NCBI RefSeq assembly: GCF_024345575.1 | Contig: NZ_JAGQBJ010000013.1 | Span: forward strand, 1 to 64,000 | Origin: Cyanobium sp. Morenito 9A2 | Lineage (GTDB): Bacteria; Cyanobacteriota; Cyanobacteriia; PCC-6307; Cyanobiaceae | Direction of reading: 5' to 3' | DNA: 64,000 nucleotides | Shown: positions 37,505 to 60,616 of the stretch, piece by piece | Numbering within the stretch: the stretch's first letter is position 1 | How the letters are laid out: every line of letters starts with the position of its first letter | Made by a program: the position numbers and the translations under genes | Notes under the pieces: generated by a model | Told to the model about the DNA's origin: nothing | The model's input: only the letters and a program-made list of their open reading frames with translations | The model's database searches: none

Positions 37505-37907
37505 TCTACCTGCTCGATACGAACTCCTCTTCTATCTGAGCAAGAACCGTCCGCCCCAGGTGGCCGAGCGCATCGATGCCCTCAGCGATGACGACACCAT
37601 CGCCATGTCGTTCATCACCTGGGCCGAGTTGCTACGTGGGGAAGCGGGCAGTCGGCGGCGGGAGGCCACCCTGCAGCAGCTGGAGGCCCTGACGCGATTG
37701 GTGCCGGTGCTCTATCCCCAGGGACCGGGAATCTGCGAGCACTACGCCGTTCAGGCCACCGCCTTGAAGCGCCGTGCCACACCGATCGGCGCCAACGACC
37801 TCTGGATCGCCTGTCACGCCCTGGCGATCGGCGCCACCGTGGTGAGCCACAACGTCAGCGAGTTCAGCCGCGTCGATAGGCTGCAGCTGGTGGACTGGGC
37901 CGCCTGA
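37501..37907 (+). pseudogene. vapC: VapC-type PIN toxin, frameshifted
   Basis: GTG 37501 begins VIYLLDTN, the PIN start with its first catalytic Asp, but the frame ends at TGA 37537. One base seems lost between 37524 and 37527. The remaining frame reads LFYLSKNRPPQVAERIDALS, SFITWAELLRGEAGSRRREA and GANDLWIACHALAIGATVVS, holding the second (Glu) and third (Asp) acidic residues, and ends NVSEFSRVDRLQLVDW. The RNase would be complete if the lost base were restored. Confidence 0.8.
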
Positions 37908-37963
37908 ATCTCCCCCTCACACCGCCAACGAATCGGCAGCGTCACCCCGCCAAGCTTGTTCTC

Positions 37964-37990
37964 AACTGCTGCGCAGAAGCCTGCGGCTAC
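37964..37990 (-). repeat. 27-nt dispersed repeat, copy R1
   Basis: The minus strand carries the core GGCTTCTGCGCAGCAGT. Compared with the uninterrupted paralogue near 45615, these 27 nt stand where the paralogue has 3 nt (CTC). They encode VAAGFCAAV between FVR and ENKLGGVTLP. Confidence 0.75.
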
Positions 37991-38197
37991 CCGCACAAAC
38001 AGCATCACGCGGCTGCTGCGCTCGGCGTGGCGGATGTAGCGCTGGCCGGTAACGGAGGCTTCGCGGGTGAGGCTCTGGCTCTCCCAGTGGAAATCCCACT
38101 GGGAGATCGCGCCGTCGTTGGTGCGGGTGGTGGGGGAGAACAGGCGCTCGGACTTCTTGAGGGTGATTAAAATGACATCGCACTGGGTCGCCTTATC

Positions 38198-38224
38198 GAA
38201 GCCGACGGCTTCTGCGAGGCAGTG
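38198..38224 (+). repeat. 27-nt dispersed repeat, copy R2
   Basis: The plus strand reads GACGGCTTCTGCGAGGCAGTG at its core. It replaces 3 nt of the paralogue (AAA in CATCAAAGAACACCCC near 45828). It is in the opposite orientation to R1 and R3, yet the host frame stays open. Confidence 0.7.
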
Positions 38225-38233
38225 GAGGACTCC

Positions 38234-38260
38234 AACTGCTGCGCAGAAGCCTTCGGCTAC
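38234..38260 (-). repeat. 27-nt dispersed repeat, copy R3
   Basis: The minus strand carries GAAGGCTTCTGCGCAGCAGT, differing from R1 by a single base over 27 nt. It replaces CTC of the paralogue just before GCGGCCGGGGAAGG. It lies 9 nt from R2. Confidence 0.75.
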
Positions 38261-38296
38261 GCGGCCGGGGAAGGGCCTGGCCTCGTTGATTTGGCC

Positions 38297-38323
38297 ATGG
38301 CCGAAGGCATCTGCGTAGCAGTG
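38297..38323 (+). repeat. 27-nt dispersed repeat, copy R4
   Basis: The plus strand reads GAAGGCATCTGCGTAGCAGTG at its core. It sits at the point where an internal block of the helicase paralogue is missing, so its borders cannot be set by comparison. Confidence 0.6.
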
Positions 38324-38398
38324 GGCGGCAGCCCAGAGCTGGACGAGGGCCTCGGCCAGGGGCACGTGCTGCCGGACGCTGAAACTGTCGCCGTGGGC

Positions 38399-45464: not shown

Positions 45465-47444
45465 TCACACCGCCACCGCCAGCTCCGGATAGAAGCCCCC
45501 CGGAATCGCACGCTGCAGCCGCCAGCGAATCGCCATCGGGCGTTCGCCTTCGTGGCTCACGTAGTCGGCAAAGCCCAGGCAAAGAAACGGCAACGTGACG
45601 CCGCAGCGCCGGTTCTCCTCCCGCACAAACAACAGCACTCGGCTACTGCGGGCGCGGTGGTGGATGTAGCGCTGGCCGGTGGCTGAGGCTTCGCGGGTGA
45701 GGCTCTGGCTCTCCCAGTGGAACTCACGCGGTGAGATGGCGTAGTCGTTGTAGCGGGTGGTGGGGGAGAACAACCGCTCACTCTTCTTCAGGGTGATGAA
45801 GAACACGTCGCAACGCGACGCCTCATCAAAGAACACCCCCTCGCGGCCGGGGAAGGGGCGGGCCTCGTTCAGCAAGCCAAACGCCGCGAACACTTCGGCG
45901 CGGGAGTAGCGGCCGTGGAGCATGAGGGGCACCGGCGGGGCTGGATCGCTATCGGACAGAAACGGCCAATCGAGCGGTGCCACCAGGTGGTCGGTGCGCT
46001 CCAGCAGGAGCCCAGCCAGCTCCACCAGCTCGGCGCGGATGGCGGAAGCGGCCCAGAGCCGCACCAACGCCTCTGCGAGGGGCACATGGTTGCGGCCACT
46101 GCCCCAGAGCTGGGCCAGCAGAATCCGCCACTGACGCTCCGCACACAGATCCAACCCCGCCGGATCAGGCGCCACGGGCCGCTGCAGCTGATCCACCAGC
46201 CAGCGCAGGCGCTCGGGGTCGTCGAGATGCAGCAGGCCGCCGGCGATCCCCCGCCCCAACCGCTCCTCATCCGCCGTGGGCTCCCCGGAGGCTGCCGCCG
46301 CTCCCCACCCCAGCTCCCGCTGCAGTAACGCCCAACACCCCGCCACCCGATAAAACTCCCCCAGCTCCATCCCGAGCCCATCGAGCAGCGCCGCCAGCGA
46401 GCAGGCCCCGAAGCGTCGGCATTCGGCGAGCAGCTGGGGCCGGCGGCTGGGCAGCGACTCGCGCAGATTGGAAAGCACCCGCTCCGTGGAGACGCGATCG
46501 AGCTGGAGGCTGCAGCCGGCGGGGAGGAAGGGGAAGCCGGTTTCGATCTGCTGGCGCAGCTGGTCGCGGGTGCCGCCGAGCAGGGCGCGGTAGCGGAGGT
46601 CGTGGCGGAAGCGGCGGTGGGCCTGGCCGATGAAATCAAGAACGGTGAGGCAGCTCTTGCCCGGGCAGAGGCGCAGACCGCGGCCGAGCTGCTGCAGGAA
46701 CACGATGGCGCTCTCGGTGGGCCGCAGGAACAGCACCGTGTCGATCTCGGGGATGTCGAGCCCTTCGTTGAACAGATCCACGGCGAAGAGGATCTGCAGC
46801 TCACCGGACCTGAGGCGGCGGATCTGCTCGGCGCGCTCCTCGCGGGGGCTGGAGGCATCGAGGGCGGCGGCGCGCAGGCCGGCATCGGCGAACTTGCGGG
46901 CCATCCAGCCGGCGTGCTCCACGCTCACGCAGAAGCCCAGGGCCCGCATCGTCTGCAGGTGGGTGATCTTGCCCTCGAGTTCGCGCAGGATCAGGCGCAG
47001 GCGGGCGTCGTCGGCTGTGTAGAGCCTGGAGAGGGCGCCGCTGTCGTAGCCGTTGCGGCGCCATTCGATGCGGGAGAGGTCGGTGCCGTCGTGGAGGCCG
47101 AAGTAGTGGAAGGGCGCCAGCAGGCCCTGATCGAGGGCGCTCCAGAGCCGCAGCTCAGCGGCGGTGTGGCCGCCGAACCAATGGAGGATGTCGAGGCCGT
47201 CGGTGCGTTCGGGGGTGGCGGTGAGGCCGAGCAGCAGGGACGGCGCCAGGTGGGCCAGCCAGCGCTCGTAGCTGGAGGCGGCGGCGTGGTGGAACTCATC
47301 GACGATCACCACGTCGAACGTGCCCGGCGCCAGGCCCGCCGGATCGATCCCCGCGAGCGACTGCACCGAGGCGAACACATGGCGCCACTGGCCGGGACGC
47401 TGGCCATCCACCAGCAGCTCACCGAAGGAGCCATCGCGCAGCAC
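45465..47444 (-). pseudogene. DEAD/DEAH helicase with DUF3427-type C-terminus, N-terminally truncated
   Basis: 659 codons are open. Present: motif II DVVIVDEFHHAAASSYERW, motif III LLLGLTATPERTDGLDIL, motif VI VFLQQLGRGLRLCPGKSCL and a long DUF3427-like end (FITLKKSERLFSPTTRYNDY; FHWESQSLTREASATGQRYI). Missing: the N-terminal phospholipase-D-like nuclease domain and the Walker A motif of this family. The homology stops near FKEGFTTFRQVLRDGSFGEL, and upstream DNA on this strand has stops. Without Walker A it cannot hydrolyse ATP, so it is a relic or a non-enzymatic fragment. Confidence 0.75.
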
Positions 47445-47683: not shown

Positions 47684-48850
47684 ATGTTTAAGGATTACGC
47701 CGGTATCGAAGTCTTGGCAATGGAAGCCATTCGAGCTGAGCATTTTGCTACGTCTGACTTGCTACTTGCTAAGCCTGACGATATCGCCGGAGAGGTGCTG
47801 GCATGGATGACGGGTAACGACTTTGATGTCGCACCAGTCACAGATCATGCTGCTCTTGGTTTTCTCCAGAGGGAGGACCTTCGGGCAATGGAACGCCAAT
47901 CTTCCATTCAGACTGCAATCCGGCCACTTGATGAAGCACTGATCGTCGCGCCTTCACTTTCCCTTCAGGATGCAATCCGGATACTCACTGAAAAGGGGTG
48001 GTTCTTTCTGCAAGAGGATGGAGATTTAGTTGGCATAGCCACGCGAGATGATCTTTCCAAGCCAGCTGTTTGCCTTTACCTTTTTGCCAAGACAATGGCG
48101 CTTGAAGCTGGCCTTCGGCGACTGATTGGTACCTATGACACTACGCCAATTCCAGATTCTCCGCCTGATGAAAACGATGACTCTCCGGGACCAAGATATC
48201 TCCGAGAGGTAATCCTGAGAACGAAGCAGAACAAGAAACTCCTCGGCGATCTAGGCTATTCAGGGAAGGGGGCCAGTGGCAGATTCGATGAGCTATCAAA
48301 GTTTGTGAATCGCTTGAGAAATCATATCGCCCACGGAAGAAGCCTCCTCGCCATCAGTGAGAAGGTTGCCAGCTATGGAAGCCGTTTGCAGGAACTTGAT
48401 CTGCTGTTGGGGAGGATTCAGAGCCTCTCCGTCGATTCTCTTCAAGCATGGGAGGCCTATGCCTCTACTGAGATCGTTCGACGCGTTGTCTCCGAAGAAG
48501 TTTGGGCAGGTTCGCAGCCGGGCGATCTTCCGGAGGGATCGCCATGGATCATTCTCACTGCATCGAATCCGCACGAGGAGGTGCTGAGCGAGGCTGAGAA
48601 CGCCGAACGAAATCACGAGCTTGTGAATCTCCTTGCTCAAAGGGGCTACGATCCTATCCCTGTGGAAGGACGCTCAAGTTGCGGTCGCCGGAGAGAAGAG
48701 AGTGTCGCCATTAGAGGAATGCAAAGGGATGAAGCAGGAGAGGTCTGCAAGCTTTTCCGGCAAAGGGGATTCTTTGAGATCACCGACTTAAACTTCGTCG
48801 TATATTCAGCAGATGGGGTTGAAATGCGGCGAAGAGGTAGAGCGACTTGA
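47684..48850 (+). CDS. CBS-pair, HEPN-like and DUF3293 fusion, putative defence protein
   Basis: 388 residues. About 20-135: two CBS-like units (LAKPDDIAGEVLAWMTGNDF; APSLSLQDAIRILTEKGWFF then DGDLVGIATRDDLSKPAV), which typically bind adenosine nucleotides. About 140-245: a helical domain with FVNRLRNHIAHGRSLLAI, which holds the Rx4H motif (RNHIAH) of HEPN ribonucleases. About 285-385: SPWIILTASNPHEEVLSEAE, NHELVNLLAQRGYDPIPVEG and RREESVAIRGM fit DUF3293. A nucleotide-gated RNase is an inference. Its GC content is visibly lower than its neighbours, indicating transfer. It lies 150 bp before hsdM. Confidence 0.65.
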   Translation: MFKDYAGIEVLAMEAIRAEHFATSDLLLAKPDDIAGEVLAWMTGNDFDVAPVTDHAALGFLQREDLRAMERQSSIQTAIRPLDEALIVAPSLSLQDAIRILTEKGWFFLQEDGDLVGIATRDDLSKPAVCLYLFAKTMALEAGLRRLIGTYDTTPIPDSPPDENDDSPGPRYLREVILRTKQNKKLLGDLGYSGKGASGRFDELSKFVNRLRNHIAHGRSLLAISEKVASYGSRLQELDLLLGRIQSLSVDSLQAWEAYASTEIVRRVVSEEVWAGSQPGDLPEGSPWIILTASNPHEEVLSEAENAERNHELVNLLAQRGYDPIPVEGRSSCGRRREESVAIRGMQRDEAGEVCKLFRQRGFFEITDLNFVVYSADGVEMRRRGRAT

Positions 48851-49000: not shown

Positions 49001-51184
49001 ATGAACCACAACGAGATCGTCAGCTTCCTCTGGGGCGTCGCCGACCTGATCCGTGACACCTTCAAGCGCGGCAAGTATCAGGACGTGATCCTGCCGCTCA
49101 CGGTGCTGCGGCGGCTTGATTGTGTGCTCGCAGGAACGAAGGAAACTGTGCTGGCCAAGCAGGCGGAGCTGCGGGACAAGAAGTTGGAGAACCTGGATCC
49201 GCAGCTGCGCAAGGCCGCCGGCTTCGCCTTCTACAACACCTCCCGCTACGACTTCGAGAAGCTGCTGGCCGATGCACCCGATCTGGCCAAGAACCTGCGC
49301 AACTACATCGCGGGCTTCAGTCCTAACATGCGCGAGGTTATCGAGAAGTTCGACTTCGACAACACGATCAGCAAGCTCGATGAAGCCGGGCTACTCTTTC
49401 AGGTGCTGGAACGATTCAAGAAGGTAGATCTGCACCCCAGCCGGATCGACAACGCCACCATGGGTACGATCTTTGAAGAACTAATCCGCAAGTTCAACGA
49501 AGCACTGAATGAGAACCCTGGGGAGCACTTCACGCCGCGGGATGTGGTTCACCTAATGGTGGATCTCATGCTGGCCGGTGATGCAGAGCTCATCCGTAGG
49601 CCGGGTGTCGTGGCCACCGTGTATGACCCATGCTGCGGTTCGGGCGGCATGCTGATGATCAGCAAGGAGCACATCACTTCTGGCCTACGCAAGAATGGTG
49701 AGCTGCTCAGCCCTGCGATCAACGAACAGGCCGAGCTTCATCTATTTGGCCAGGAGGTCAATCCAGAAACCTGGGCCGTGTCGAAGTCGGATCTATTCAT
49801 GAAGGATCCCAGTGGCCGTGATGCCGACAATCTCTTTTATGGCAGCACGCTCGCCAACGACCGCCACAGAGGCATCAACTTCGATTACCTAATAGCCAAT
49901 CCCCCCTACGGCAAAGACTGGAAGCGGGATGAAACAGACGTGCGAGCCGAACACGAGCGAGGCGCCGCCGGGCGCTTTCCACCGGGTCTGCCGCGCATCA
50001 GTGATGGACAGCTGCTGTTCCTGCTGCACATGCTGGCCCATGCCAAGGATCCAGCCGAAGGCGGTTCCCGCATCGCGATCATCATGAACGGATCGCCGCT
50101 GTTCACGGGCGACGCCGCCAGCGGCGAAAGCGAGATCCGCCGCTTCATCCTGGAGAACGACTGGCTGGAAGCGCTGATCGCCCTTCCCGAGCAGCTCTTC
50201 TACAACACCGGCATCGCCACCTACGTGTGGGTAGTGACGAACCGCAAGGCCCCTGAGCGAAAGGGGAAAGTGCAACTGATCGATTCGTCGCACTTCGATC
50301 AGGACACCAAGACCGGACTGTTCTGTGCGGCGATGCGAAAGTCCCTGGGCGACAAACGCCGTGAGATCCCCTACGCGAAGGCCCAGGACATTCTCAAGAT
50401 CCTTGCTGACTACACCGACGGCGATACCCGCACGGTGACGAAGGACGGCAAGACCGAGGAGATCGTGGTGAGCCGCATCTTCCCCACCACCCACTTCGGC
50501 TTCCGCAAAATCACGGTGGAGCGACCGCTGCGGCTCAGCTTCCAGGCCAGCCCCGAACGGGTCGCACAGCTGCAGGCCGAGAAGGGTTTCTTGGCCCTGG
50601 CCACTAGCAAGAAGAAAGGGGAGGCCGGAGCCCGGGACATCTCTGAAGGCCGCGCTCTACAGGAGAAGATCTGCGACCTGGTGAACGATCTACCGGAGGA
50701 GCCGTTCCCGGATCGGGTCGAGTTTGACAAGCTCCTCACCCTGGCCGCTCGCCACGCCGGTGTGAAGCTCACCGCACCAGCCCGCAAGGCGATCCTCGCC
50801 GCCCTGGGCGAGCGGGACGAGAACGCGGAGATCTGCACCAATGGCGACGGCACGCCCGAGCCCGACCCCGAATTGCGCGACACCGAAAGCGTTCCCCTGC
50901 CGCCCGGTCCCGACCCGGTCGACGATGAGGGAATCCCAGCCAGCGTGCAGGCGTTCTTCGATCGCGAGGTGCTCCCCCATGTGCCCGATGCCTGGATCAA
51001 CACCAGCAAGCGCGACGAACGCGACGGCCTGGTGGGGCTGGTGGGCTACGAGATCAACTTCAACCGCTACTTCTACCGCTACACACCACCTCGCCCGCTC
51101 GAGGAGATCGAGGCGGACATCCGCACGATCGAAGACGACATCCTGCGGATGCTGGCGGAGGTGACGGCCGCAGGCAGGGTCTAA
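49001..51184 (+). CDS. hsdM: Type I restriction-modification methyltransferase subunit HsdM
   Basis: 727 residues. The N-terminal helical HsdM domain (SFLWGVADLIRDTFKRGKYQ) leads into the N6-adenine methylase: GEHFTPRDVVHLMVDL, the SAM motif YDPCCGSGGMLMISKEHITS (about 208-227) and the catalytic NPPYGKDWKRDETD (about 300). It is longer than typical (~500-550), with a C-terminal extension ending in a helical segment (LEEIEADIRTIEDDILRMLA) that may contact HsdS. Methylates adenine at the site set by HsdS. First gene of the operon continuing to hsdR. Confidence 0.95.
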   Translation: MNHNEIVSFLWGVADLIRDTFKRGKYQDVILPLTVLRRLDCVLAGTKETVLAKQAELRDKKLENLDPQLRKAAGFAFYNTSRYDFEKLLADAPDLAKNLRNYIAGFSPNMREVIEKFDFDNTISKLDEAGLLFQVLERFKKVDLHPSRIDNATMGTIFEELIRKFNEALNENPGEHFTPRDVVHLMVDLMLAGDAELIRRPGVVATVYDPCCGSGGMLMISKEHITSGLRKNGELLSPAINEQAELHLFGQEVNPETWAVSKSDLFMKDPSGRDADNLFYGSTLANDRHRGINFDYLIANPPYGKDWKRDETDVRAEHERGAAGRFPPGLPRISDGQLLFLLHMLAHAKDPAEGGSRIAIIMNGSPLFTGDAASGESEIRRFILENDWLEALIALPEQLFYNTGIATYVWVVTNRKAPERKGKVQLIDSSHFDQDTKTGLFCAAMRKSLGDKRREIPYAKAQDILKILADYTDGDTRTVTKDGKTEEIVVSRIFPTTHFGFRKITVERPLRLSFQASPERVAQLQAEKGFLALATSKKKGEAGARDISEGRALQEKICDLVNDLPEEPFPDRVEFDKLLTLAARHAGVKLTAPARKAILAALGERDENAEICTNGDGTPEPDPELRDTESVPLPPGPDPVDDEGIPASVQAFFDREVLPHVPDAWINTSKRDERDGLVGLVGYEINFNRYFYRYTPPRPLEEIEADIRTIEDDILRMLAEVTAAGRV

Positions 51185-51213
51185 CGCAAAATGAAGGCAC
51201 CTTGCCATACGTT

Positions 51214-51284
51214 GCCGACATCTCGCGTTGACAGGGGCCGCAGTTTCGCTCAGATTGTCGGCATGGCTGCTCCATCTGCCGACA
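51214..51284. promoter_or_regulatory. Promoter and inverted-repeat operator of the AbiE module
   Basis: GCCGACA occurs at 51214-51220 and 51278-51284, and its complement TGTCGGC at 51256-51262. TTGACA near 51228 with CAGATT 17 bp on would be a promoter between the first two half-sites. Known AbiEi antitoxins bind inverted repeats in their own promoter, so autoregulation inside the operon is plausible. Confidence 0.55.
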
Positions 51285-51865
51285 TTTCGAGCCAGGAAGC
51301 CGGCCTGGGCGCCTTCTTCCGCTCCAGTGATCTGGATGCGGCCGGGCTCAGCCGCCATCAACTGCCCAGCCTGCTGCGTTCTGGGGCAGTGGAGCGGCTT
51401 GGTCGCGGCCTCTACCGCCGCACCGACGCCGAACCCAGCGAGCACTATTCCCTGGCGATGGCCTGCGCCGCGGTCCCCCACAGCATCGTGTGTCTGCTGT
51501 CGGCCCTGCAGGTGCATGACATCGGCACCGAGGCGCCGGCTGCGATCTGGCTGGCCATCCCCCACAAGGCGCGCCTGCCCCAGCTGGAGACCCTGAAGCT
51601 GCGGATCGTGCGCTTTAGCGGCCCGGCCTGGACCTATGGCGTGAGCAAAACCACGTTCGAGGGCGTGCCGGCCCGGATCACCTCGCCGGCGCGCACGATT
51701 GCCGATTGCTTCCGCTTCGAGCGGCTGGTGGGCAGCGAAACAGCCCTGGAAGCATTAGAGGATGGCCTGCGACAGCACAAGGTGAACATGGCGGAACTGG
51801 AGCGGGTGCTGGAGGTGCTGCCGTCTCGGCGTCTGCGTGCGGCCCTGGCGGTGGGGCAGCGATGA
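51263..51865 (+). CDS. abiEi: AbiEi-type antitoxin (type IV system)
   Basis: 200 residues. The winged-helix N-terminus (GLGAFFRSSDLDAAGLSRHQ; LLRSGAVERLGRGLYRRTDA) is the AbiEi antitoxin domain. The C-terminal part TFEGVPARITSPARTIADCF, RFERLVGSETALEALEDGLR is the AbiEi_1/_4 region needed against the toxin. In type IV systems the antitoxin does not bind its partner but opposes its effect and represses the operon. ATG 51263 lies within the operator. Stop overlaps abiEii by 4 bp. Confidence 0.85.
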   Translation: MAAPSADISSQEAGLGAFFRSSDLDAAGLSRHQLPSLLRSGAVERLGRGLYRRTDAEPSEHYSLAMACAAVPHSIVCLLSALQVHDIGTEAPAAIWLAIPHKARLPQLETLKLRIVRFSGPAWTYGVSKTTFEGVPARITSPARTIADCFRFERLVGSETALEALEDGLRQHKVNMAELERVLEVLPSRRLRAALAVGQR

Positions 51866-52791
51866 AGGGGAACCCAGCCGCCTCGGTCAAAGACCGCCTG
51901 CTGGCCAAGGCTGGCGGCGAAGCCTTCCAGCGCACCCTCACGCGCTATGCCGCTGAACGACTGCTCTACCGGCTCGGTGCGTCAGCGGTGCGGGAGCGTT
52001 TCGCCCTCAAGGGGGCGAGTTTGCTCACGGTGTGGTTGCCCGATCCCTACCGCGGCACCAAGGATGTGGACCTGCTGGCATCCGGTGATCCCAGTGACGC
52101 TTCCATTCGGGCATTGCTCGAAACCGTTTGCGCGGTGCCTTGTCCGGAGGATGGAGTGATCTTTGATCTCAGCACGCTCCGTCTGGAGACGATCCGGCCC
52201 GAGGAGGAGTATTCCGGCAAGCGGGCCCGCTTCCGCGCCCTGCTTGGCAACACACGCATTGGCGTGCAGCTGGATCTGGGCTTCGGTGATGCTGTGGTGC
52301 CGGAGCCGGCTGACATCACCTACCCAACCCTTCTGAACGATCTGCCGGCACCGGAGCTACTGGCCTATCCGCGGGAGGCGGCTGTGGCGGAGAAGTTCGA
52401 AGCGATGCTGAAGCTCGATCTGCGCAACAGCCGCATGAAGGATTTTCATGACCTGTGGGCCCTGGCCAGTTCCTTCAGTTTCGAGGGGCAGGTGTTGCAG
52501 GCAGCTGTAGACGCGTGCTTCAAAAGGCGCGGTACCCCTTGGACGGAGCAGATCCCCACGCCGCTGACGCCGGTCTTTTACCAACGACCGGATTTGGCGG
52601 CACGATGGGCGGGTTATCTAGCCCGGGAGGCCGTGCTGGTGCCCCCGCCGAATCGCTTCGAGGAGATCGGAGAGGCGATCCTTGCCTTTCTGGGGCCGGT
52701 GCGGGAAAGCCTGGTGGCTGGTGGTCCGTTCGATCGGGGATGGCCAGCAGGTGGGCCTTGGTGGGGGCTTAGCGAGGAGGTGGCGAGTTGA
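51862..52791 (+). CDS. abiEii: AbiEii-type nucleotidyltransferase toxin
   Basis: 309 residues. ERFALKGASLLTVWLPDPYR then GTKDVDLLASGDPSDA carries the nucleotidyltransferase signature GS..DxD (KGASLL; KDVDLL). REAAVAEKFEAMLKLDLRNS, RMKDFHDLWALASSFSFEG gives the conserved Lys and Asp of AbiEii/DUF1814 proteins. Relatives use a nucleotide to block tRNA or growth in infected cells. Starts on the abiEi stop and ends on the hsdS start. All key residues are visible. Confidence 0.85.
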   Translation: MKGNPAASVKDRLLAKAGGEAFQRTLTRYAAERLLYRLGASAVRERFALKGASLLTVWLPDPYRGTKDVDLLASGDPSDASIRALLETVCAVPCPEDGVIFDLSTLRLETIRPEEEYSGKRARFRALLGNTRIGVQLDLGFGDAVVPEPADITYPTLLNDLPAPELLAYPREAAVAEKFEAMLKLDLRNSRMKDFHDLWALASSFSFEGQVLQAAVDACFKRRGTPWTEQIPTPLTPVFYQRPDLAARWAGYLAREAVLVPPPNRFEEIGEAILAFLGPVRESLVAGGPFDRGWPAGGPWWGLSEEVAS

Positions 52792-54113
52792 GCTCGGTGG
52801 AAGCGGGAACGAAAGAGGGGCTGCAAGGGCGGTTCAAGCCCTATCCCGCCTACAAGGATTCGGGAGTGGAGTGGCTGGGAGAGATACCCGAACGTTGGAC
52901 CGCGAAGCGACTGAAGTTCTCAGTGGTGATGAATCCAGTTGCCTCAGAACTTCGTGCGCTTCCCCCTGACACGGAGGTCTCCTTTGTCCCCATGGAAGCG
53001 GTTGGTGAGCATGGAGGTCTAGCGCTGTCGGGAAGCAAGCTACTTGTAGATATTGGAACTGGTTACACCTACTTTAAAGACGGCGATATTGTCGTTGCAA
53101 AGATCACACCTTGCTTTGAAAATGGGAAGGGTGCTGAAGCGACTGGGCTAGTCAACGGAATAGCTTTTGGCACGACGGAGTTGCACGTCTTGCGGGCAGT
53201 CGCCTGCCTTGATCAGCGTTTTCTTTTCTACATCACCCTGAGCGACGCCTTCCGAAAGATCGGTTGGGCAGACATGTATGGAGCGGGCGGTCAGAAGCGA
53301 GTGCCGGAATCATTTATCAAAAACCTCCGGCATCCCCTTCCACCCGAACCAGAACAACGCGCCATAGCCACCTTCCTCGACCGCGAGACCGCCCGAATTG
53401 ATGCCCTGGTGGCGAAGAAGCAGCGGCTGATCGATCTGCTCCAGGAGCAACGCACCGCCCTGATCACGCGCGCCGCTACGAAGGGCCTCGATCCAACCGT
53501 TCCCATGAAGGATTCAGGGGTGGAGTGGCTGGGGGAGATTCCAGCTCATTGGCAGGTCAAGCCACTGAAGCGCTTGTTTTCAAACCTTGACTCAGTACGC
53601 GTTCCACTCAGCGGCGAAGAGAGGTCATCGATGGCAAAGGAATACCCGTACTATGGGGCGTCGGGAGTAATCGATTTCGTCGAAGATTATCTATTTGATG
53701 AGCCACTCATCCTTGTTGCTGAGGATGGAGCAAATCTTTACTCACGCTCCTCACCCTTGGCGTTTGTTGCGCCTGGAAAGTATTGGGTAAACAATCACGC
53801 TCACATTTTGAAGCCGGTGGATGGCGACATTAGATACTGGGCACAGGTGCTCAGTTGCGTAGTGTTTGATCCATGGATTTCTGGTTCTGCTCAGCCAAAG
53901 CTAACTGGCGAAAAGCTGGGGTCCATACCCATGCCAGTCCTGCAGCTTTCTGAGAGGCAATCCATCGCTGGCTTCCTTGATCTCGAAACTGCTCGGATCG
54001 ATGCGCTGATTTCTAAAGTCCGCGTCGCGATCGCACGTATCCAGGAACTCCGCGCCGCCCTGATCTCCGGAACTGTCACAGGCAAGATCGATGTGCGTGA
54101 GGAAGTGGTATGA
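52788..54113 (+). CDS. hsdS: Type I restriction-modification specificity subunit HsdS
   Basis: 441 residues. Two target-recognition halves start YKDSGVEWLGEIPERWTAKR and MKDSGVEWLGEIPAHWQVKP. Each half ends in a long helix (ATFLDRETARIDALVAKKQR; AGFLDLETARIDALISKVRV) that spaces the half-sites. TRD cores (about 52920-53330 and 53560-53930) are lower in GC than the conserved parts, as expected from TRD shuffling. The specificity site cannot be read from sequence. Start is TTG 52788, overlapping the abiEii TGA by 4 bp. Confidence 0.95.
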   Translation: MSSVEAGTKEGLQGRFKPYPAYKDSGVEWLGEIPERWTAKRLKFSVVMNPVASELRALPPDTEVSFVPMEAVGEHGGLALSGSKLLVDIGTGYTYFKDGDIVVAKITPCFENGKGAEATGLVNGIAFGTTELHVLRAVACLDQRFLFYITLSDAFRKIGWADMYGAGGQKRVPESFIKNLRHPLPPEPEQRAIATFLDRETARIDALVAKKQRLIDLLQEQRTALITRAATKGLDPTVPMKDSGVEWLGEIPAHWQVKPLKRLFSNLDSVRVPLSGEERSSMAKEYPYYGASGVIDFVEDYLFDEPLILVAEDGANLYSRSSPLAFVAPGKYWVNNHAHILKPVDGDIRYWAQVLSCVVFDPWISGSAQPKLTGEKLGSIPMPVLQLSERQSIAGFLDLETARIDALISKVRVAIARIQELRAALISGTVTGKIDVREEVV

Positions 54114-55255
54114 CCCGCGTGGCGATTGAGGGTGCCATGCTCCGGTGGGCGCGCGAGCGTGCCGGAAGAACCCGAGAAAGCCTGGCATCGAAGTTTGCCC
54201 CCCTTGCGGATTGGGAGACAGGAGAAGCGCGGCCAACGCTGAAGCAGCTTGAGGCCTATGCCAAAGCTGTTCATGTTCCAATTGGCTACCTGTTCCTTCG
54301 CGAACCCCCTGAAGAGATTGTACCGATTCCCGATTTCCGCACGGTTGCAGACCAGCCACTGCGCCGCGCCAGCCCCGACCTGCTGGACACGGTCTATCTC
54401 TGCCAGCAGCGCCAGGAATGGTACCGCGATGATGCCCGGCAGGCTGGGGCTCAGCCCTTGCCCTTCGTGGGATCACTCGCGCTTGGGGCTGATGTCGTTC
54501 GCAGTGCTGCTTCCATTCGCACAGCCCTCGGCGTTGATCTGGAGGCCCAGCGGCGCCTGCCGACGTGGACCGATGCTCTGCGCGCCTTCATTGAGAAAGC
54601 AGATGCGCTCGGCGTTCTTGTGATGGTGAGTGGAGTCGTGGGCAGCAACAATCGGCGGGCGCTCGATCCCTCGGAGTTCCGCGGCTTTGCCTTGGCCGAC
54701 CCTGTGGCCCCACTCGTGTTCATCAACGGCGCCGACAGCAAGGCGGCGCAGATGTTCACCCTGGCCCATGAGCTGGCCCACCTCTGGCTCGGTGAATCGG
54801 CCCTTTCGGATGCCCAGGCTTCTGAAGCCCCGGCGCAGGCTGTTGAGCGCTGGTGCAATCAGGTTGCTGCAGAGCTCCTTGTACCGCTTGCTGTGTTCAC
54901 AGCTGAACAGGATACGGGTGCTGATCTGCAGGAGGAGCTCAATCGTTTGGCGAGGCGATTCAAGGTGAGTACCTTGGTTATCCTGCGCCGGATGCATGAC
55001 GCAGGCAGCCTGCGTGGTGAGGCCTACTGGCACGCGTACAACGCCGAACTCGAACGCCTTCTTGAACTCCCTGGAGGCAGTGGTGGCAATTTCTACCTCA
55101 CCCTGGGGGCAAGAGTCAGCAAGCGATTCGCACGGGCGGTGGTGAGCAGCACCCTGGAGGGGCGTTCCTCCTTCACGGAGGCTTTTCGCCTACTGGGCTT
55201 TCGGAAGATTGACACCTTCCGCCAGCTCAGCACCAGCTTGGGAGTCGCTTTCTGA
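54110..55255 (+). CDS. HTH-ImmA/IrrE metallopeptidase, antitoxin-like
   Basis: 381 residues. The N-terminal XRE-type HTH (RWARERAGRTRESLASKFAP, LKQLEAYAKAVHVPIGYLFL) is followed by the metalloprotease domain with zinc motif FTLAHELAHLWLGESALSDA (HExxH reads HELAH, about 223) and ERWCNQVAAELLVPLAVF as third-ligand region. Such Xre-ImmA/IrrE proteins pair with PIN or other toxins and can cleave repressors on a stress signal. It overlaps hsdS by 4 bp and the PIN gene by one base, so the pair is cotranscribed with the restriction genes. Confidence 0.85.
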   Translation: MTRVAIEGAMLRWARERAGRTRESLASKFAPLADWETGEARPTLKQLEAYAKAVHVPIGYLFLREPPEEIVPIPDFRTVADQPLRRASPDLLDTVYLCQQRQEWYRDDARQAGAQPLPFVGSLALGADVVRSAASIRTALGVDLEAQRRLPTWTDALRAFIEKADALGVLVMVSGVVGSNNRRALDPSEFRGFALADPVAPLVFINGADSKAAQMFTLAHELAHLWLGESALSDAQASEAPAQAVERWCNQVAAELLVPLAVFTAEQDTGADLQEELNRLARRFKVSTLVILRRMHDAGSLRGEAYWHAYNAELERLLELPGGSGGNFYLTLGARVSKRFARAVVSSTLEGRSSFTEAFRLLGFRKIDTFRQLSTSLGVAF

Positions 55256-55755
55256 TGGCTTACCTGCTGGATGCGAACGTTTTCATCTCAGCCAAAAACC
55301 TCCACTATGGGTTCGACTTCTGCCCGGCCTTCTGGCAATGGCTGGATGATCGCAATGCCGATGGAACGGTCTTCAGTATCGAGAAGGTGGGAGATGAAGT
55401 TGAGGCCGGAGCTGACGATCTTGCGAGGTGGGCAGCTGCACGCCGAGGCAGTTTTTTCTTACCTCTTAGCCCGGGGGTGGTGACATCACTCGGGGCTGTC
55501 AGTTCGTGGGCTGTTGGGCAAAGCTATGACCCGGCCGCAGTCAATACGTTTCTGAGTGTGGCTGATTATTATTTGGTTTCGCAGGCGCATGCTGGTGCGC
55601 ACACAGTTGTGACCCATGAAAAGCCGCGTGCCTCCATCAAGATCATCAAGATCCCTGATGCCTGCATCAGCCTCGGGATCCGCTGCATCACGCCCTATGA
55701 GATGCTCCGCAATGAACGGGCACGCTTCGTGTTGGGTCTTGGAGGCGCGCCATGA
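55255..55755 (+). CDS. DUF4411 PIN-like toxin
   Basis: 166 residues. AYLLDANVFISAKNLHYGFD carries the PIN first Asp, FCPAFWQWLDDRN and IEKVGDEVEAGADDLARWAA give further acidic positions, and VADYYLVSQAHAGAHTVVTH supplies the C-terminal Asp. It matches the DUF4411 branch of the PIN superfamily, usually coupled to an HTH-ImmA/IrrE gene as here. A ribonuclease toxin is predicted. The ATG overlaps the upstream TGA by one base; it is followed by hsdR with 4 bp overlap. Confidence 0.8.
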   Translation: MAYLLDANVFISAKNLHYGFDFCPAFWQWLDDRNADGTVFSIEKVGDEVEAGADDLARWAAARRGSFFLPLSPGVVTSLGAVSSWAVGQSYDPAAVNTFLSVADYYLVSQAHAGAHTVVTHEKPRASIKIIKIPDACISLGIRCITPYEMLRNERARFVLGLGGAP

Positions 55756-58700
55756 CGCCTGAGATCTCCGAACGCGTGCTCGAAGAGGCGATCGAAACGG
55801 CCCTGATCCAGCACGGCACGTCCAACGACGGCGCCCACCAGCCCGGCTACCACAAGCGCAAGCCCGATCAATACGACCGTAATCTCTGCTCGCTCTCGCA
55901 GGATTTGCTCGACTTCGTACTGGCCACCCAGCCGAAGCAGTGGAACAAGCTCGCCCAGCACCATGGCACCGCCGTACGGGAGCAGTTTCTCAAACGTGTT
56001 TCCGCCGAGATCGAGCGACGCGGCACCCTTGATGTGCTCCGTCAGGGACTCAAGGATTCCGGCTGCAAGTTCCGTCTGGCCTACTTCCAACCCGCCAGCG
56101 GTCTCAACGAGGAAACCCGCCGCCTCCATGGCGCCAATCTTTTCGCCGTGGTGCGCCAGCTCCACTACAGCACCCGCAATGAGAACAGTCTTGATCTGGT
56201 TCTCTTTCTAAACGGAGTTCCTCTCTTCACCGCCGAGCTTAAGAATCCGCTGACGGGACAGAACGTCCAAGACGCGATCCGCCAGTACAAGACCACCCGC
56301 GATCATCGCGAACCGCTGCTCGCCTATGGCCGCTGCCTGGGCCACTTCGCCGCGGATTCCGAGCTCGCGTACGTGGCTTCCCAGCTGGCAGGGCCGCGCA
56401 CCCGCTTCCTGCCCTTTAACCAGGGACGCTTTGGCGGTGCCGGCAACGCCCCTGTGCCGCCCACCCGGTCCGGCTACGCCACCGCCTACCTCTGGGAGCA
56501 GATCTGGTCGCCCTCCAGCGTGCTGGATCTGGTTCGCCAATTCATCCACGAGGTGGAGCAGGAAGACGACAACGGCCGCAAGACTGGCAAGCACTTCCTC
56601 ATCTTCCCCCGCTACCAGCAACTTGATTGTGTGCGCCGCTTGGTGGCCGATGCCCGCAGCCGTGGCCCCGGCCAGCGCTACCTAATCCAACACTCCGCCG
56701 GCAGCGGCAAGAGCTTCACCATCGCCTGGCTGGCCCACCAGCTCAGCACCCTCCACAACGCATCCGATGCGCGCGTATTCGACTCGATCGTGGTGATCAC
56801 CGACCGCCGCATCCTCGATCGCCAGCTGCAGAGCACCATCCGCCAGTTCGAGCAGACCCTTGGCGTGGTCGAAACCATCGACACCACCTCTCGCCAGCTC
56901 AAGGACGCGCTCGAATCCGGCAAGACGATCATCGTCACCACCCTCCAGAAGTTCCCAGTGATCGCTCAGCAGATCGGTGAGCTACCCGGCAAGCGCTTCG
57001 CAGTGATCGTGGATGAAGCCCACTCGTCCCAATCGGGCGAAAGCACCAAGAGCCTCAAAGCCGTGCTCAGTGCCTCCTCTCTGGAAGCGGCCGAAAGCGA
57101 AGAGGAAACCGCAGCTACGCCGGAGGAGGAACTCGAGGGCACGATCCTCGCCGAGATGGAGAAGCGCGGCCGGTTGCCGAACGTGTCTACCTTCGCTTTC
57201 ACCGCTACCCCCAAGCCGAAAACCCTGGAGCTCTTCGGTGTTCGCCGGCCCGACGGCACCTTCGCTCCCTTTCACCTTTACAGCATGCGCCAGGCGATCG
57301 AGGAGCGCTTCATCCTCGATGTGCTGGCCAACTACACCACCTACACGGCCTACTGGCGGCTGCTCAAGAAGGTCGATGACGATCCGCGGTATGACAAGCG
57401 CAAGGCGGAATACCTGCTCAAGTCGTTTGTGGAGCTGCATCCCCACGCCATCGGCGAGAAGGTGCGGATCTGCGTGGAGCATTTCGCCACAAGCGTGCAG
57501 GATCAGATCGGCGGCATGGCCAAGGCGATGGTTGTGACGCGCTCACGTCTCCATGCGGTGCGCTACAAGCTCGCCATCGATCGCTATCTTGCCGAACGTG
57601 GCTACCCCTTCAAGTCCCTGGTAGCTTTCTCCGGAACGGTACAAGATGGGGGTAAGGGCTACACCGAATCTGGCATGAATGGTCTGCCAGAGGCGCAGAC
57701 CGCCAGCACCTTCGAGCAGGCCGAGTTCCGTTTCCTGATCGTGGCCAACAAGTTTCAGACCGGCTTCGATCAGCCCCTACTCCACTCTATGTATGTGGAC
57801 AAGAAGCTTGGCGGTGTGGGGGCAGTGCAGACCCTCTCACGCCTCAACCGCACCCACCCCAAGAAGGCAGGCACCTTGGTGGTGGACTTCGCCAATGAAG
57901 CCGATGCCATCAAGGCTGCCTTTGAGCCCTATTTCGAAGCCACCCTGCTTTCGGAGGCCACTGATCCGAATCTGCTTTACGAGATTGAAACGCGCCTGGC
58001 GGACTTCCCCGTCTACACCCCGGCCGATATCCATGCCTTCGCCGAGCTGTTCTTCAACCCCAAAGCCACCCAGGATGGCCTCTACCAGGTGCTGATGCCC
58101 CTGTTAGATCACTTTGAAGGACTCGGCATTGATGAACGGCACGAGTTCCGCAGCCAGCTTACTGATTACGTGCGCCTCTATGCCTTTCTGGCTCAGGTGA
58201 TTCCCTTCACCGACGCCGATCTTGAAAAGCTCTACCAGTTCGCCCGCTACCTGCGCAGACTCCTGCCCGCTGACCAACTGGAACTGCCCCTTGAGGTGCA
58301 GCAGAACATCGACATGGAGTCGTACCGAATTCAGGAAACCAGCCGTGGAGCCATTCCCCTGGATCGTGGCAACGGCGTGCTCCAGCCAGTGGGAACGAAG
58401 GGCCCCCATGGACCTGCCCCTGAGGAGCTCGAAACGCTCTCGCGCATTGTGGCCGAGCTCAATGAGCGCTTCGGGCTGAACCTGGGGCCCGAGCATCGGA
58501 TCACGCTTGGCCAGATGATGGAGCGCTTGGCCGATGACGTGGCCCTTGAGGCTGCGGCTCGCGTCAACACCCGTGAAAATGTGCGGCTCACCTTTGATCA
58601 GAAGGTGGAGAATGTGATTCAGGACATCGTTGATTCAAATTTCGATCTCTACAAACGGATCACTGATGATGCGGCTTTCGGTGAAACCGTCAAGAACTTC

Positions 58701-59234
58701 CTCTTCGATCAATACCTGCGCGGCCATCGCAACGCCGAAGAGCTGATCAAACGAGGTGAATCGAAAACCCTTGAGTTCAAGTCCACCCTCCGCTGGAGCC
58801 TCCAGGAAAACCGTAAGGACGACAAGGGCGTCACCCATGCAGCACTCAAAACCATTGCCGCCTTCCTCAACACCGAAGGCGGTGACCTGCTGATCGGTGT
58901 TGCCGATGATGGCTCAATAGTAGGCATTGAGCCGGATAAGCTCGAGAACGACGACAAGTTCATGCGCCACCTCTCCCAAGTGGTCCGGAACGGCCTAGGC
59001 GATCGTGCCGGCACCTGCATCGACCCCAAAACCCAGAACGTTCAAGGCCGCACTGTGTGCGTGGTGAGCTGTCAGCGCAGTCCTGAGCCAGTGCGTCTTC
59101 GCTGGAAGGGACTGGAGGCCACCCCAGATGGCGACTTCTTCGTGCGTAGTGGTCCCGGCACAGTGAAGTTGGCTCCCGAGAGCGCCACGGAGTTCATCCG
59201 TACGAGGTTCCCAGGATTCAACCCAGGCCCTTAG
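55752..59234 (+). CDS. hsdR: Type I restriction enzyme HsdR with C-terminal AlbA_2 domain
   Basis: 1160 residues. The N-terminal nuclease core has VLFLNGVPLFTAELKNPLTG (about 150-170, PD-ExK type Glu/Lys). SF2 translocase motifs: Walker A IQHSAGSGKSFTIAWLAHQL (about 313-332), motif II AVIVDEAHSSQSGESTK (about 417-433), FAFTATPKPKTLELFG, and RFLIVANKFQTGFDQPLLHS. After the helical C-domain, residues about 995-1155 form an extra AlbA_2/Schlafen-like domain (ELIKRGESKTLEFKSTLRWS; AAFLNTEGGDLLIGVADDGS). Standard HsdR lacks this domain. Last gene of the operon. Confidence 0.95.
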   Translation: MTPEISERVLEEAIETALIQHGTSNDGAHQPGYHKRKPDQYDRNLCSLSQDLLDFVLATQPKQWNKLAQHHGTAVREQFLKRVSAEIERRGTLDVLRQGLKDSGCKFRLAYFQPASGLNEETRRLHGANLFAVVRQLHYSTRNENSLDLVLFLNGVPLFTAELKNPLTGQNVQDAIRQYKTTRDHREPLLAYGRCLGHFAADSELAYVASQLAGPRTRFLPFNQGRFGGAGNAPVPPTRSGYATAYLWEQIWSPSSVLDLVRQFIHEVEQEDDNGRKTGKHFLIFPRYQQLDCVRRLVADARSRGPGQRYLIQHSAGSGKSFTIAWLAHQLSTLHNASDARVFDSIVVITDRRILDRQLQSTIRQFEQTLGVVETIDTTSRQLKDALESGKTIIVTTLQKFPVIAQQIGELPGKRFAVIVDEAHSSQSGESTKSLKAVLSASSLEAAESEEETAATPEEELEGTILAEMEKRGRLPNVSTFAFTATPKPKTLELFGVRRPDGTFAPFHLYSMRQAIEERFILDVLANYTTYTAYWRLLKKVDDDPRYDKRKAEYLLKSFVELHPHAIGEKVRICVEHFATSVQDQIGGMAKAMVVTRSRLHAVRYKLAIDRYLAERGYPFKSLVAFSGTVQDGGKGYTESGMNGLPEAQTASTFEQAEFRFLIVANKFQTGFDQPLLHSMYVDKKLGGVGAVQTLSRLNRTHPKKAGTLVVDFANEADAIKAAFEPYFEATLLSEATDPNLLYEIETRLADFPVYTPADIHAFAELFFNPKATQDGLYQVLMPLLDHFEGLGIDERHEFRSQLTDYVRLYAFLAQVIPFTDADLEKLYQFARYLRRLLPADQLELPLEVQQNIDMESYRIQETSRGAIPLDRGNGVLQPVGTKGPHGPAPEELETLSRIVAELNERFGLNLGPEHRITLGQMMERLADDVALEAAARVNTRENVRLTFDQKVENVIQDIVDSNFDLYKRITDDAAFGETVKNFLFDQYLRGHRNAEELIKRGESKTLEFKSTLRWSLQENRKDDKGVTHAALKTIAAFLNTEGGDLLIGVADDGSIVGIEPDKLENDDKFMRHLSQVVRNGLGDRAGTCIDPKTQNVQGRTVCVVSCQRSPEPVRLRWKGLEATPDGDFFVRSGPGTVKLAPESATEFIRTRFPGFNPGP

Positions 59235-59677: not shown

Positions 59678-60616
59678 TCAGTGCCTCAGAGCTTCCCGAT
59701 GGTCAGCCAAAAAGGATTCCTGCTCCCGACTGAACGGCCGGATCAGGTTGGCGCCCTCAATCCCCCAGCAGCGCAACGCATCGCGGGCCGCCTCGTGTTC
59801 GCAGAGCAGTGCACCCCCGGAATCGAAGCTGATCCAATGGCGGTCGAACAGCTTGTCCACATGGGGGGAGAGCAGCAGGCCGTTGGCACCGCTGAGCCTC
59901 TCGCGGTTGTCGCAATCGCGCCAGGGTTTGATGTGGCTCGCCACCAGAAACTGTTGTCGCGCCAGCCCCGTCACCCGGCAGAACGGCTCCAGTTCCGACA
60001 CCCGATGGCGGAACAACCCCTGCCCCAGCCGCGCCTTGGTGAGCGCATCGCGCTCGGTGCTGCTCGGCACCTCCCGCAGCCGTTGCATGTCATCGAGCAG
60101 GGCGGCTGTGTAGTCGCCTTCTTCCGCCAGCACCACCAGGTGCACCCGCACCGCCGGATCGGCATGGTCTTCGATCAACTTGAGCAGCAACAGGCCAAGG
60201 GTTTCGCCCAACCCCGCCAGGTACACACCCTGGTTGCCCCGACCTGAGTTGGTGCTGATCGGGCTGTGGCGCTCAGGCAGCAGCGGTTGCAACAGCTCGA
60301 AAAACGTCTGCGGCACCAGCGCCTGGCGCAGCGGCTGCCAGTTCACGCGCACCAGCCAACCTTCCTGGCTCCAGTTCTCCCCGGCCGATCCGAACTCCGG
60401 TGGCTTGGGGGCCGTGACCACCGCTGTTTCCACCAGGCCGATCTGGCTGATCTTGCCGTTGGCGTAGCTGAACACCACATCCCCCCGCTGGCAGCGGGTG
60501 AGGTTGTCGTAGCTCACGTTCCGCGCGCCGTTGGCATTGGCCTTCGGCGACCAGATGTAGCCGCCGTCGGTTTCCTGCCGGTAGGTCTGCTTGTGGTTGA
60601 CCCACCAGTAGGCCAT
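59678..60616 (-). CDS. PUA/EVE-like domain fused to HNH nuclease
   Basis: 312 residues. The first ~90 residues (AYWWVNHKQTYRQETDGGYI; VSYDNLTRCQRGDVVFSYAN; GKISQIGLVETAVV) resemble EVE-type base-sensing domains (WW start, VFSY strand). The C-terminal ~110 residues hold an HNH nuclease: FCRVTGLARQQFLVASHIKP, GANGLLLSPHVDKLFDRHWI (the HNH_2 pattern HIKPW..N..LL..HxDxLFD). The combination fits type IV, modification-dependent restriction, where a reader domain directs cleavage. It faces hsdR from the other strand. Reader specificity is inference. Confidence 0.75.
   Translation of the reverse strand: MAYWWVNHKQTYRQETDGGYIWSPKANANGARNVSYDNLTRCQRGDVVFSYANGKISQIGLVETAVVTAPKPPEFGSAGENWSQEGWLVRVNWQPLRQALVPQTFFELLQPLLPERHSPISTNSGRGNQGVYLAGLGETLGLLLLKLIEDHADPAVRVHLVVLAEEGDYTAALLDDMQRLREVPSSTERDALTKARLGQGLFRHRVSELEPFCRVTGLARQQFLVASHIKPWRDCDNRERLSGANGLLLSPHVDKLFDRHWISFDSGGALLCEHEAARDALRCWGIEGANLIRPFSREQESFLADHREALRH

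Follow-up and report, generated by a model that had tools for sequence, protein, structure and literature searches.

A cyanobacterial CBS-HEPN protein with a SAM-lyase-like DUF3293 domain, a candidate single-chain ribonuclease of defence or stress

Among the genes of the window (the whole stretch of 64,000 nucleotides from Cyanobium sp. Morenito 9A2 that was analysed here), the one at 47684..48850 on the + strand encodes, from an ATG start, a protein of 388 amino acids made of three parts. These are an N-terminal CBS pair, a HEPN-like helical domain, and a C-terminal DUF3293 domain whose predicted structure is closest to that of the phage SAM lyases. We propose that the protein is a single-chain defence or stress RNase, with the HEPN domain as its effector and with the CBS pair and DUF3293 in control, a reading that we regard as evenly poised between right and wrong. 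The findings give DUF3293 a testable identity, with a place among the SAM lyases of the PII-like superfamily, and they extend the newly proven CBS-HEPN type of defence by a second ligand module. The natural fusion of a CBS-HEPN core with a SAM-lyase-like domain also suggests that the ligand is SAM, MTA, or a relative of these.

The gene and its base composition

The open reading frame is a real gene under purifying selection. When it is compared with its ortholog at L021, in another genome of the same family (about 73-74% identical), dN/dS comes to 0.10 for the whole gene and to 0.06 for the middle, HEPN-like domain, which means that all three parts of the protein are under selection. With a GC content of 51.9% and a GC3 of 49.6%, it has the lowest GC among the measured genes of the region: hsdM stands at 61.3% (GC3 79.5%), the upstream helicase at 69.7% (88.0%), and hsdS at 54.7% (58.1%). 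The L021 ortholog has a similarly low GC3 of 51%. A preliminary description, made from the letters of the window, had named an open reading frame of three parts at 47684-48850, with CBS units, an Rx4H motif, and a DUF3293 end, and had placed its GC below that of the flanking DNA. The coordinates and all three parts are borne out, and so is the contrast in composition, since the measured neighbors lie between 54.7 and 69.7%.

The CBS pair

The CBS pair occupies residues 1-126 (47684..48061, + strand). Its second unit (residues 85-125) is intact and is recognized over the cut-off by the Pfam CBS profile PF00571, with an E-value of 1.9e-5, or 2.1e-6 when the domain is searched alone. The first unit is degenerate, and its ligand motif is lost. 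It can still be traced in two ways, as residues 15-124 align in phmmer with the CBS pair of IMP dehydrogenase, and the structural matches of model residues 13-128 are mostly CBS pairs. The paired CBS-like units of the preliminary description are thus recovered, the second through Pfam and the first through the model and the phmmer alignment.

In CBS proteins, a motif of the form G-h-x-T/S-x-x-D grips the ribose and the phosphate of adenosine ligands. The second unit of the window protein has G117-I-A-T120-R-D-D123 at this place (GIATRDD; 48032..48052, + strand), and G117, I118, T120, and D123 are invariant in 11/11 aligned sequences, whose main groups share 34-43% identity. We take this motif to be of the ribose/phosphate-binding type. 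The PDB entries matched by the CBS part of the model carry AMP, ATP, SAM, and MTA, a list of what CBS pairs can bind and not of what this particular pair binds.

The HEPN-like domain

Residues 127-262 (48062..48469, + strand) make up a HEPN-like helical domain, assigned by hhalign and by weak Pfam matches in relatives. It contains the HEPN superfamily motif R-(N/D/H)-x4-6-H in the form of the Rx4H motif RNHIAH (residues 212-217; 48317..48334, + strand). Taken by itself the motif is weak, because 5% of shuffled proteins of the same composition contain R[ND]xxxH by chance, and it is conservation that carries the HEPN argument. All 11 aligned sequences agree at R212, A216, H217, G218, and R219 and have either N or D at position 213, and the domain's first helix has a further set of invariant residues (E141, G143, L144, R145, R146, and L147). 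In hhalign, the fusion family matches a short cyanobacterial CBS-HEPN family over both CBS and HEPN (probability 98.8, E 9e-17). This places RNHIAH in register with the RNKLAH of the short family, in which the motif RN(K/R/Q/N)LAH is strictly conserved among 19 sequences.

The middle domain of the window protein has no significant Pfam match, and its relatives come closer: HEPN_RiboL-PSP reaches an E-value of 2.3e-4 on the L031 domain (21.5 bits against a curated Pfam cut-off of 28.4), and HEPN_Swt1 reaches 4.7e-5 on the short relative L024, also under the cut-off. Searched with profiles segment by segment, the protein thus has its CBS and DUF3293 parts over their cut-offs, whereas the HEPN part has only sub-cut-off matches, and these in relatives. 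The full-chain AlphaFold2 model was built from four sequences and has a mean pLDDT of 52. Its HEPN part has the helices predicted in order, with a pLDDT of about 40 in the full chain and 49 when modeled alone. No HEPN is found among the structural matches of these low-confidence models, and the matches of the HEPN-alone model (the best a potassium channel complex, Z 4.5) are meaningless. The reading of the window protein as a CBS sensor joined to a HEPN effector, already put forward in the preliminary description, is well supported at the level of sequence by the invariant R212 and H217 and by the hhalign match, and it has a precedent in the DS-11 system described below; the fold models that go with it reach a pLDDT of only 40-50.

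The C-terminal domain resembles SAM lyases

The last part of the protein covers residues 277-388 (48512..48847, + strand). Its core at residues 291-361 is matched by the Pfam family DUF3293 (PF11697) with an E-value of 1.7e-12 and 48.2 bits, against a gathering cut-off of 25. The preliminary description was right about the presence of this DUF3293 end, but left unnamed what turns out to be the most informative part of the chain. When the full-chain model is aligned to known structures with VIA-align, the top match is the SAM lyase of phage T3 (8bb1_E; Z 9.5, 3.2 A over 107 residues, model residues 277-388) and the second is the Svi3-3 SAM lyase (7ock_J; Z 9.1, 2.6 A over 102 residues). Both outrank every other structure, all CBS pairs included, and the T3 enzyme (8bb1_E) is also among the matches found by Foldseek. 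The predicted elements of the domain follow each other as strand, helix, strand, strand, helix, strand, the same ferredoxin-like succession as has been described in SAM-AMP lyase (PMC12255297).

Three residues of SAM lyases, a Gly, a Glu, and a Gln (G56, E69, and Q104 in Svi3-3), are strictly conserved (PMC7877911), and all three have counterparts in register in the window protein. G329 (48668..48670, + strand) aligns with G56 of Svi3-3 and G55 of T3. E338 (48695..48697, + strand) aligns with the catalytic Glu, E69 of Svi3-3 and E68 of T3, and some relatives have Gln in its place. Q360 (48761..48763, + strand) aligns with Q104 of Svi3-3 and Q94 of T3. Across DUF3293 as a whole, the Gly and the Gln never change and the Glu hardly ever does. 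The 11 fusion sequences do not vary at G329, S331, and S340, and every one of them that aligns at position 360 has the Gln. The SAM-lyase Tyr (Y58 in Svi3-3) is not kept, and its equivalent in the fusion family is the invariant Ser331.

DUF3293 might instead be just another ferredoxin-like domain, whose likeness to SAM lyases is a convergence of fold without functional meaning. The domain model leaves some room for this, being of moderate quality (pLDDT 54-87 across most of the domain), and the sequence-only searches remain below significance. HMMER comparisons of DUF3293 with SAM lyases in both directions give E-values of about 1, for a set scaled to 1000 sequences, and no SAM lyases came up when the DUF3293 alignment was run as a profile against PDB sequences (hmmsearch), where a match to topoisomerase V (E 0.015) was taken as chance. 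The SAM-lyase profiles match in the proper place and weakly. PF23780 (S-AdoMet_lyase) has an E-value of 0.07 on the window protein (13.5 bits against a gathering cut-off of 28) and 0.05 on L032, while PHROG 2226, the T3 SAM-lyase family, has 0.36 on the window protein and 0.06 on P0002. Against convergence stand the rank of the SAM lyases above all other structures, the agreement of separate comparisons with Gly, Glu, and Gln in register, and the outcome of a direct comparison of profiles. In this comparison (hhalign), 14 DUF3293 domains were set against 8 phage SAM lyases, and scores of 32-37 over 71-79 columns were obtained, with P between 2e-5 and 4e-4 depending on direction and trimming (best run: P 2e-5, score 36.4). 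None of 300 column permutations exceeded 25.4, and the reversed profile scored 11. PII and CutA, which belong to the same superfamily, match far less well (21.3 over 21 columns and 16.8 over 17, respectively). The signal depends on the set used: the stand-alone DUF3293 domains (n = 8) score 25.4 against the SAM lyases (P 0.002), which only equals the top score among the permutations of the full set, and the DUF3293 domains of the fusion members score higher, at 30.3. We consider a meaningless convergence quite unlikely, and find it plausible that DUF3293 is a SAM-lyase-like domain within the PII-like superfamily.

The open literature that was searched has no text on DUF3293 and shows no link between the domain and SAM lyases, no DUF term occurs in PMC12255297, and within this scope no priority is claimed. 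The T3 SAM lyase (phage T3, L052 402-860) is labeled as a "SAM-dependent methyltransferase" in its record and in PHROG 2226, which is misleading. In L028 (3136-4793), a stand-alone DUF3293 gene starts 2 bp after a NAD-binding, dehydrogenase-like gene whose product matches AdoHcyase_NAD weakly (E 0.002), and this may connect DUF3293 with SAM metabolism. Across the neighborhoods of stand-alone DUF3293 genes, no constant partner gene was found.

Sensor or enzyme

The catalytic position divides the family. Position 338 is Glu in the window protein and in L021, L022, L031/L094, L032, and L097; it is Gln in L002, L098, L099, and the broken L100 (4/11 aligned). In Svi3-3 the same change (E69Q) lowers activity 4500-fold and leaves the binding of SAM and MTA intact (PMC7877911), and in SAM-AMP lyase it lowers activity without abolishing it (PMC12255297). 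Because Glu gives way to Gln in some members while the remaining conserved positions stay, ligand binding is more likely than turnover to be the feature common to all members, as far as their sequences indicate. DUF3293 would then be mainly a sensor of a SAM-type ligand that controls the RNase, and the window copy, with its catalytic Glu kept, may still be an enzyme.

Were the SAM-lyase-like domain a working enzyme, it could act as a further toxic effector and deplete SAM once the protein is activated. Alternatively, it could degrade an adenosine-type messenger and thereby turn off the RNase, a part that SAM-AMP lyase and ring nucleases play in type III CRISPR. The window protein does keep G329, E338, and Q360, the positions strictly conserved in SAM lyases (PMC7877911), and the SAM-AMP lyase, a PII-like relative, uses the same Glu and Gln (PMC12255297). 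However, the change of Glu to Gln occurs in several relatives whose domains are otherwise intact, and the SAM-lyase Tyr is absent. Moreover, the Cas10 palm domain (PF22335) is absent from the window's genome, which is 99.8% complete, so that Cas10-made SAM-AMP is not expected and Cas10/SAM-AMP signaling is ruled out here. Overall, we hold a working enzyme to be rather unlikely.

Proposed mechanism

In the single-chain RNase that we favor, the HEPN domain (R212 and H217) would be the effector; it would cut RNA, by the metal-independent activity expected of the superfamily, and would probably do so in dimeric form. Its control would lie with two modules. The first is the CBS pair, with its one intact adenosine-nucleotide site, and the second is the C-terminal PII-like DUF3293, whose ligand would be SAM or an adenosine compound derived from it (MTA or SAH, for example). 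During phage attack, a change in these pools (a loss of SAM or a rise in MTA caused by a phage SAM lyase), or another nucleotide signal, would free the RNase, and the outcome of its release would be abortive. The fusion of a CBS pair with a SAM-lyase-like domain is a sensible one, since MTA, which SAM lyase produces, and SAM itself are known CBS ligands, as the titles of structures 3kpd and 3kpc indicate, and since the phage SAM lyase counters SAM-dependent restriction (PMC7877911, PMC8406200).

A more specific form of this mechanism can be imagined, in which a host immune RNase has captured the fold of a SAM lyase as its sensor. Phages that destroy SAM, and thereby disarm the neighboring restriction-modification system, would then trigger the RNase through the rise in MTA, the fall in SAM, or contact with the lyase itself. 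The protein would serve as a back-up guard of restriction, with its CBS pair and its SAM-lyase-like domain reading the same family of metabolites. We see this as a rather improbable extension; if true, it would be a host answer to the phage SAM lyase, a long-known anti-restriction weapon.

Genomic surroundings

The gene ends 150 bp before hsdM and is the first of an island whose genes lie on the + strand. The hsdM gene (49001..51184; PADLOC MTase_I, E 5e-259) encodes a type I, SAM-dependent methyltransferase. It is followed by a pair of AbiE-like genes, an AbiEi-like antitoxin (51191..51865; PADLOC AbiEi, E 4e-56) and an AbiEii-like toxin (51706..52791; PADLOC AbiEii, E 1e-95 over residues 56-352, with the true start probably inside the open reading frame). 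After these come hsdS (52788..54113; PADLOC Specificity_I, E 6e-102), a gene for an HTH and M78 peptidase protein (54110..55255; PF06114, E 1.8e-19), a gene for a DUF4411 protein (55255..55755; PF14367, E 9e-51), and hsdR (55752..59234). The AbiE pair, the HTH-M78 peptidase, and the DUF4411 protein therefore sit between hsdM/hsdS and hsdR (51191-55755). At its C-terminal end, HsdR has an SLFN_AlbA_2 domain (residues 1003-1140, E 8e-19), and such a fusion to a type I restriction subunit looks uncommon. Just past hsdR, on the - strand at 59681-60616, there is a gene for an HNH_2 endonuclease-like protein (E 3e-12), which may mark the distal border of the defence island. None of the PADLOC models covers the window protein.

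The island is common to the window and to L025, with 81-85% identity in blocks that start 47 bp before the window ORF, and in L025 the AbiE pair, hsdS, M78, and hsdR are kept in the window's order. In both, remnants of a DUF3427 helicase border the island. The one in the window (45465-47444) is without about the first 290 profile positions, and a short second DUF3427 fragment lies 7 kb away (37814-38365).

In these two genomes, hsd genes adjoin the fusion gene; none do so at L026/L030, L027, L031, or L032, or in the short flanks of L097 and L098. A subunit or a regulator of restriction-modification is thus ruled out, since most relatives are without hsd genes alongside. The position "directly before hsdM," which the preliminary description had singled out, is correct for the window but holds in two genomes only, and it does not make the gene a regular part of restriction-modification. 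At L026/L030, the fusion gene is flanked by an AlbA_2/RecG-like regulator and a TIR gene. In the Pseudanabaenaceae, it is found behind a 100-aa cysteine-rich gene, amid toxin-antitoxin-like genes.

This cysteine-rich gene (L031 2844-3146, L032 4372-4674, and L027 11010-11354) has no Pfam match and usually lies from a few to about 30 bases upstream of the fusion. In the Pseudanabaenaceae it is found in 8/8 genomes with the fusion and in 1/30 without it (Fisher P 1.8e-7). Such an association, directly upstream, is what would be seen if the HEPN domain were the toxin of a toxin-antitoxin pair and the cysteine-rich protein its partner in this family. However, the small gene is missing upstream of the fusion both in the window and in L021, where similarity starts 47 bp before the ORF, and a toxin-antitoxin pair is to our minds very unlikely.

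Relatives and distribution

Full-length relatives are few. In a phylum sample of 386 genomes, there was one other (L002, 37% identity), and about 25 genomes matched the CBS-HEPN part only. A sample of 197 near-relative genomes had the DUF3293 form in few of them and added two more full-length relatives, L021 and L022 (39%). Among the Pseudanabaenaceae, the fusion occurs in 8/38 genomes, where stop codons break one copy and contig ends divide another. When the genome collection was scanned, three loci came up, every one cyanobacterial. No homologs were found in viral contigs, which were queried with the protein, the fusion alignment, and the short family, or in phages searched by tblastn, and plasmids yielded only haloarchaeal CBS matches and stand-alone DUF3293 in Burkholderiales. 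The patchy distribution, the decayed copy, and the low GC agree with an accessory gene that spreads horizontally. The first two of these, together with the defence-type neighbors, are also part of what the link to defence rests on.

A role outside defence has been weighed as well: the protein could be an ordinary cyanobacterial stress-regulatory RNase, in which CBS would read adenylate charge and HEPN would trim RNA. The related short CBS-HEPN family (about 267 aa; L003-L020, L024) is in keeping with this, as it is highly conserved in large-genome cyanobacteria and present in about 25/386 genomes of the phylum sample, and a role of this kind was proposed for CBS-HEPN fusions by Anantharaman et al. 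in 2013 (PMC3710099). No described function for the short cyanobacterial family was found in the literature searched. The DUF3293 form is distributed otherwise, being patchy in the Pseudanabaenaceae and rare among the near relatives, and it has a restriction-modification/AbiE island beside it in two genomes and TIR and AlbA_2 genes close by in another. We therefore consider a purely regulatory role unlikely, and retain the RNase of defence or stress, controlled by two ligand modules, as the preferred reading.

Comparison with known systems

The closest precedent is DS-11, a one-protein system of CBS and HEPN that came from DefensePredictor and protects E. coli against phage (PMC13092281). Its protection is abolished by mutating either a CBS Tyr, which contacts adenine in a model, or the HEPN catalytic residues, and its ligand is unknown (PMC13092281). 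Like DS-11, the window protein has CBS followed by HEPN in one chain and no partner gene in the window, and adenine-type sensing and ribonuclease activity would be expected of it. Unlike DS-11, it is without about 65-80 profile positions N-terminal to the CBS pair, and it adds the SAM-lyase-like DUF3293, none being mentioned in the DS-11 text. Membership in DS-11 is ruled out by profile: the NCBIfam model NF053863 (DS11_antiphage) gives 13.6 bits on the window protein and 17.7 bits on L031, against an equivalog cut-off of 260. Its weak matches in the fusion family (E 0.0015-0.027) lie over the CBS part and, for some relatives, reach as far as the first helix of HEPN, and none of the 386 genomes in the phylum sample has a match over the cut-off.

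The short cyanobacterial CBS-HEPN family shares the CBS-HEPN core of the window protein and is without DUF3293. The phage SAM lyases (T3 gene 0.3 and Svi3-3; PF23780, PHROG 2226), whose pocket lies at a trimer interface, share the PII-like fold, as judged by structure match, and have Gly, Glu, and Gln in register. However, they are stand-alone enzymes with an active-site Tyr, whereas here the fold is the C-terminal domain of a host protein, in some relatives of which the Glu has become Gln. The CARF-HEPN proteins Csm6 and Csx1 likewise fuse a nucleotide sensor to a HEPN RNase, but their sensor is CARF and not CBS, and they are tied to CRISPR. They are listed in PMC3710099, a paper of 2013 that also drew attention to fusions of HEPN with CBS. 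The SAM-AMP lyase of type III CRISPR is also comparable, being PII-like, with the same Glu and Gln, a defence context, and an adenosine-type messenger (PMC12255297); it is encoded by a gene of its own within a type III CRISPR locus, whereas no Cas10 palm domain was found in the window's genome. Finally, in a distant genome of the phylum, a CBS-HEPN-like module with the motif RNQVFH is fused to a DEAD/Helicase_C part (L039 1339-3747), and this module is the nearest to DS-11 in the phylum sample, at an E-value of 4e-25 that is under the cut-off.
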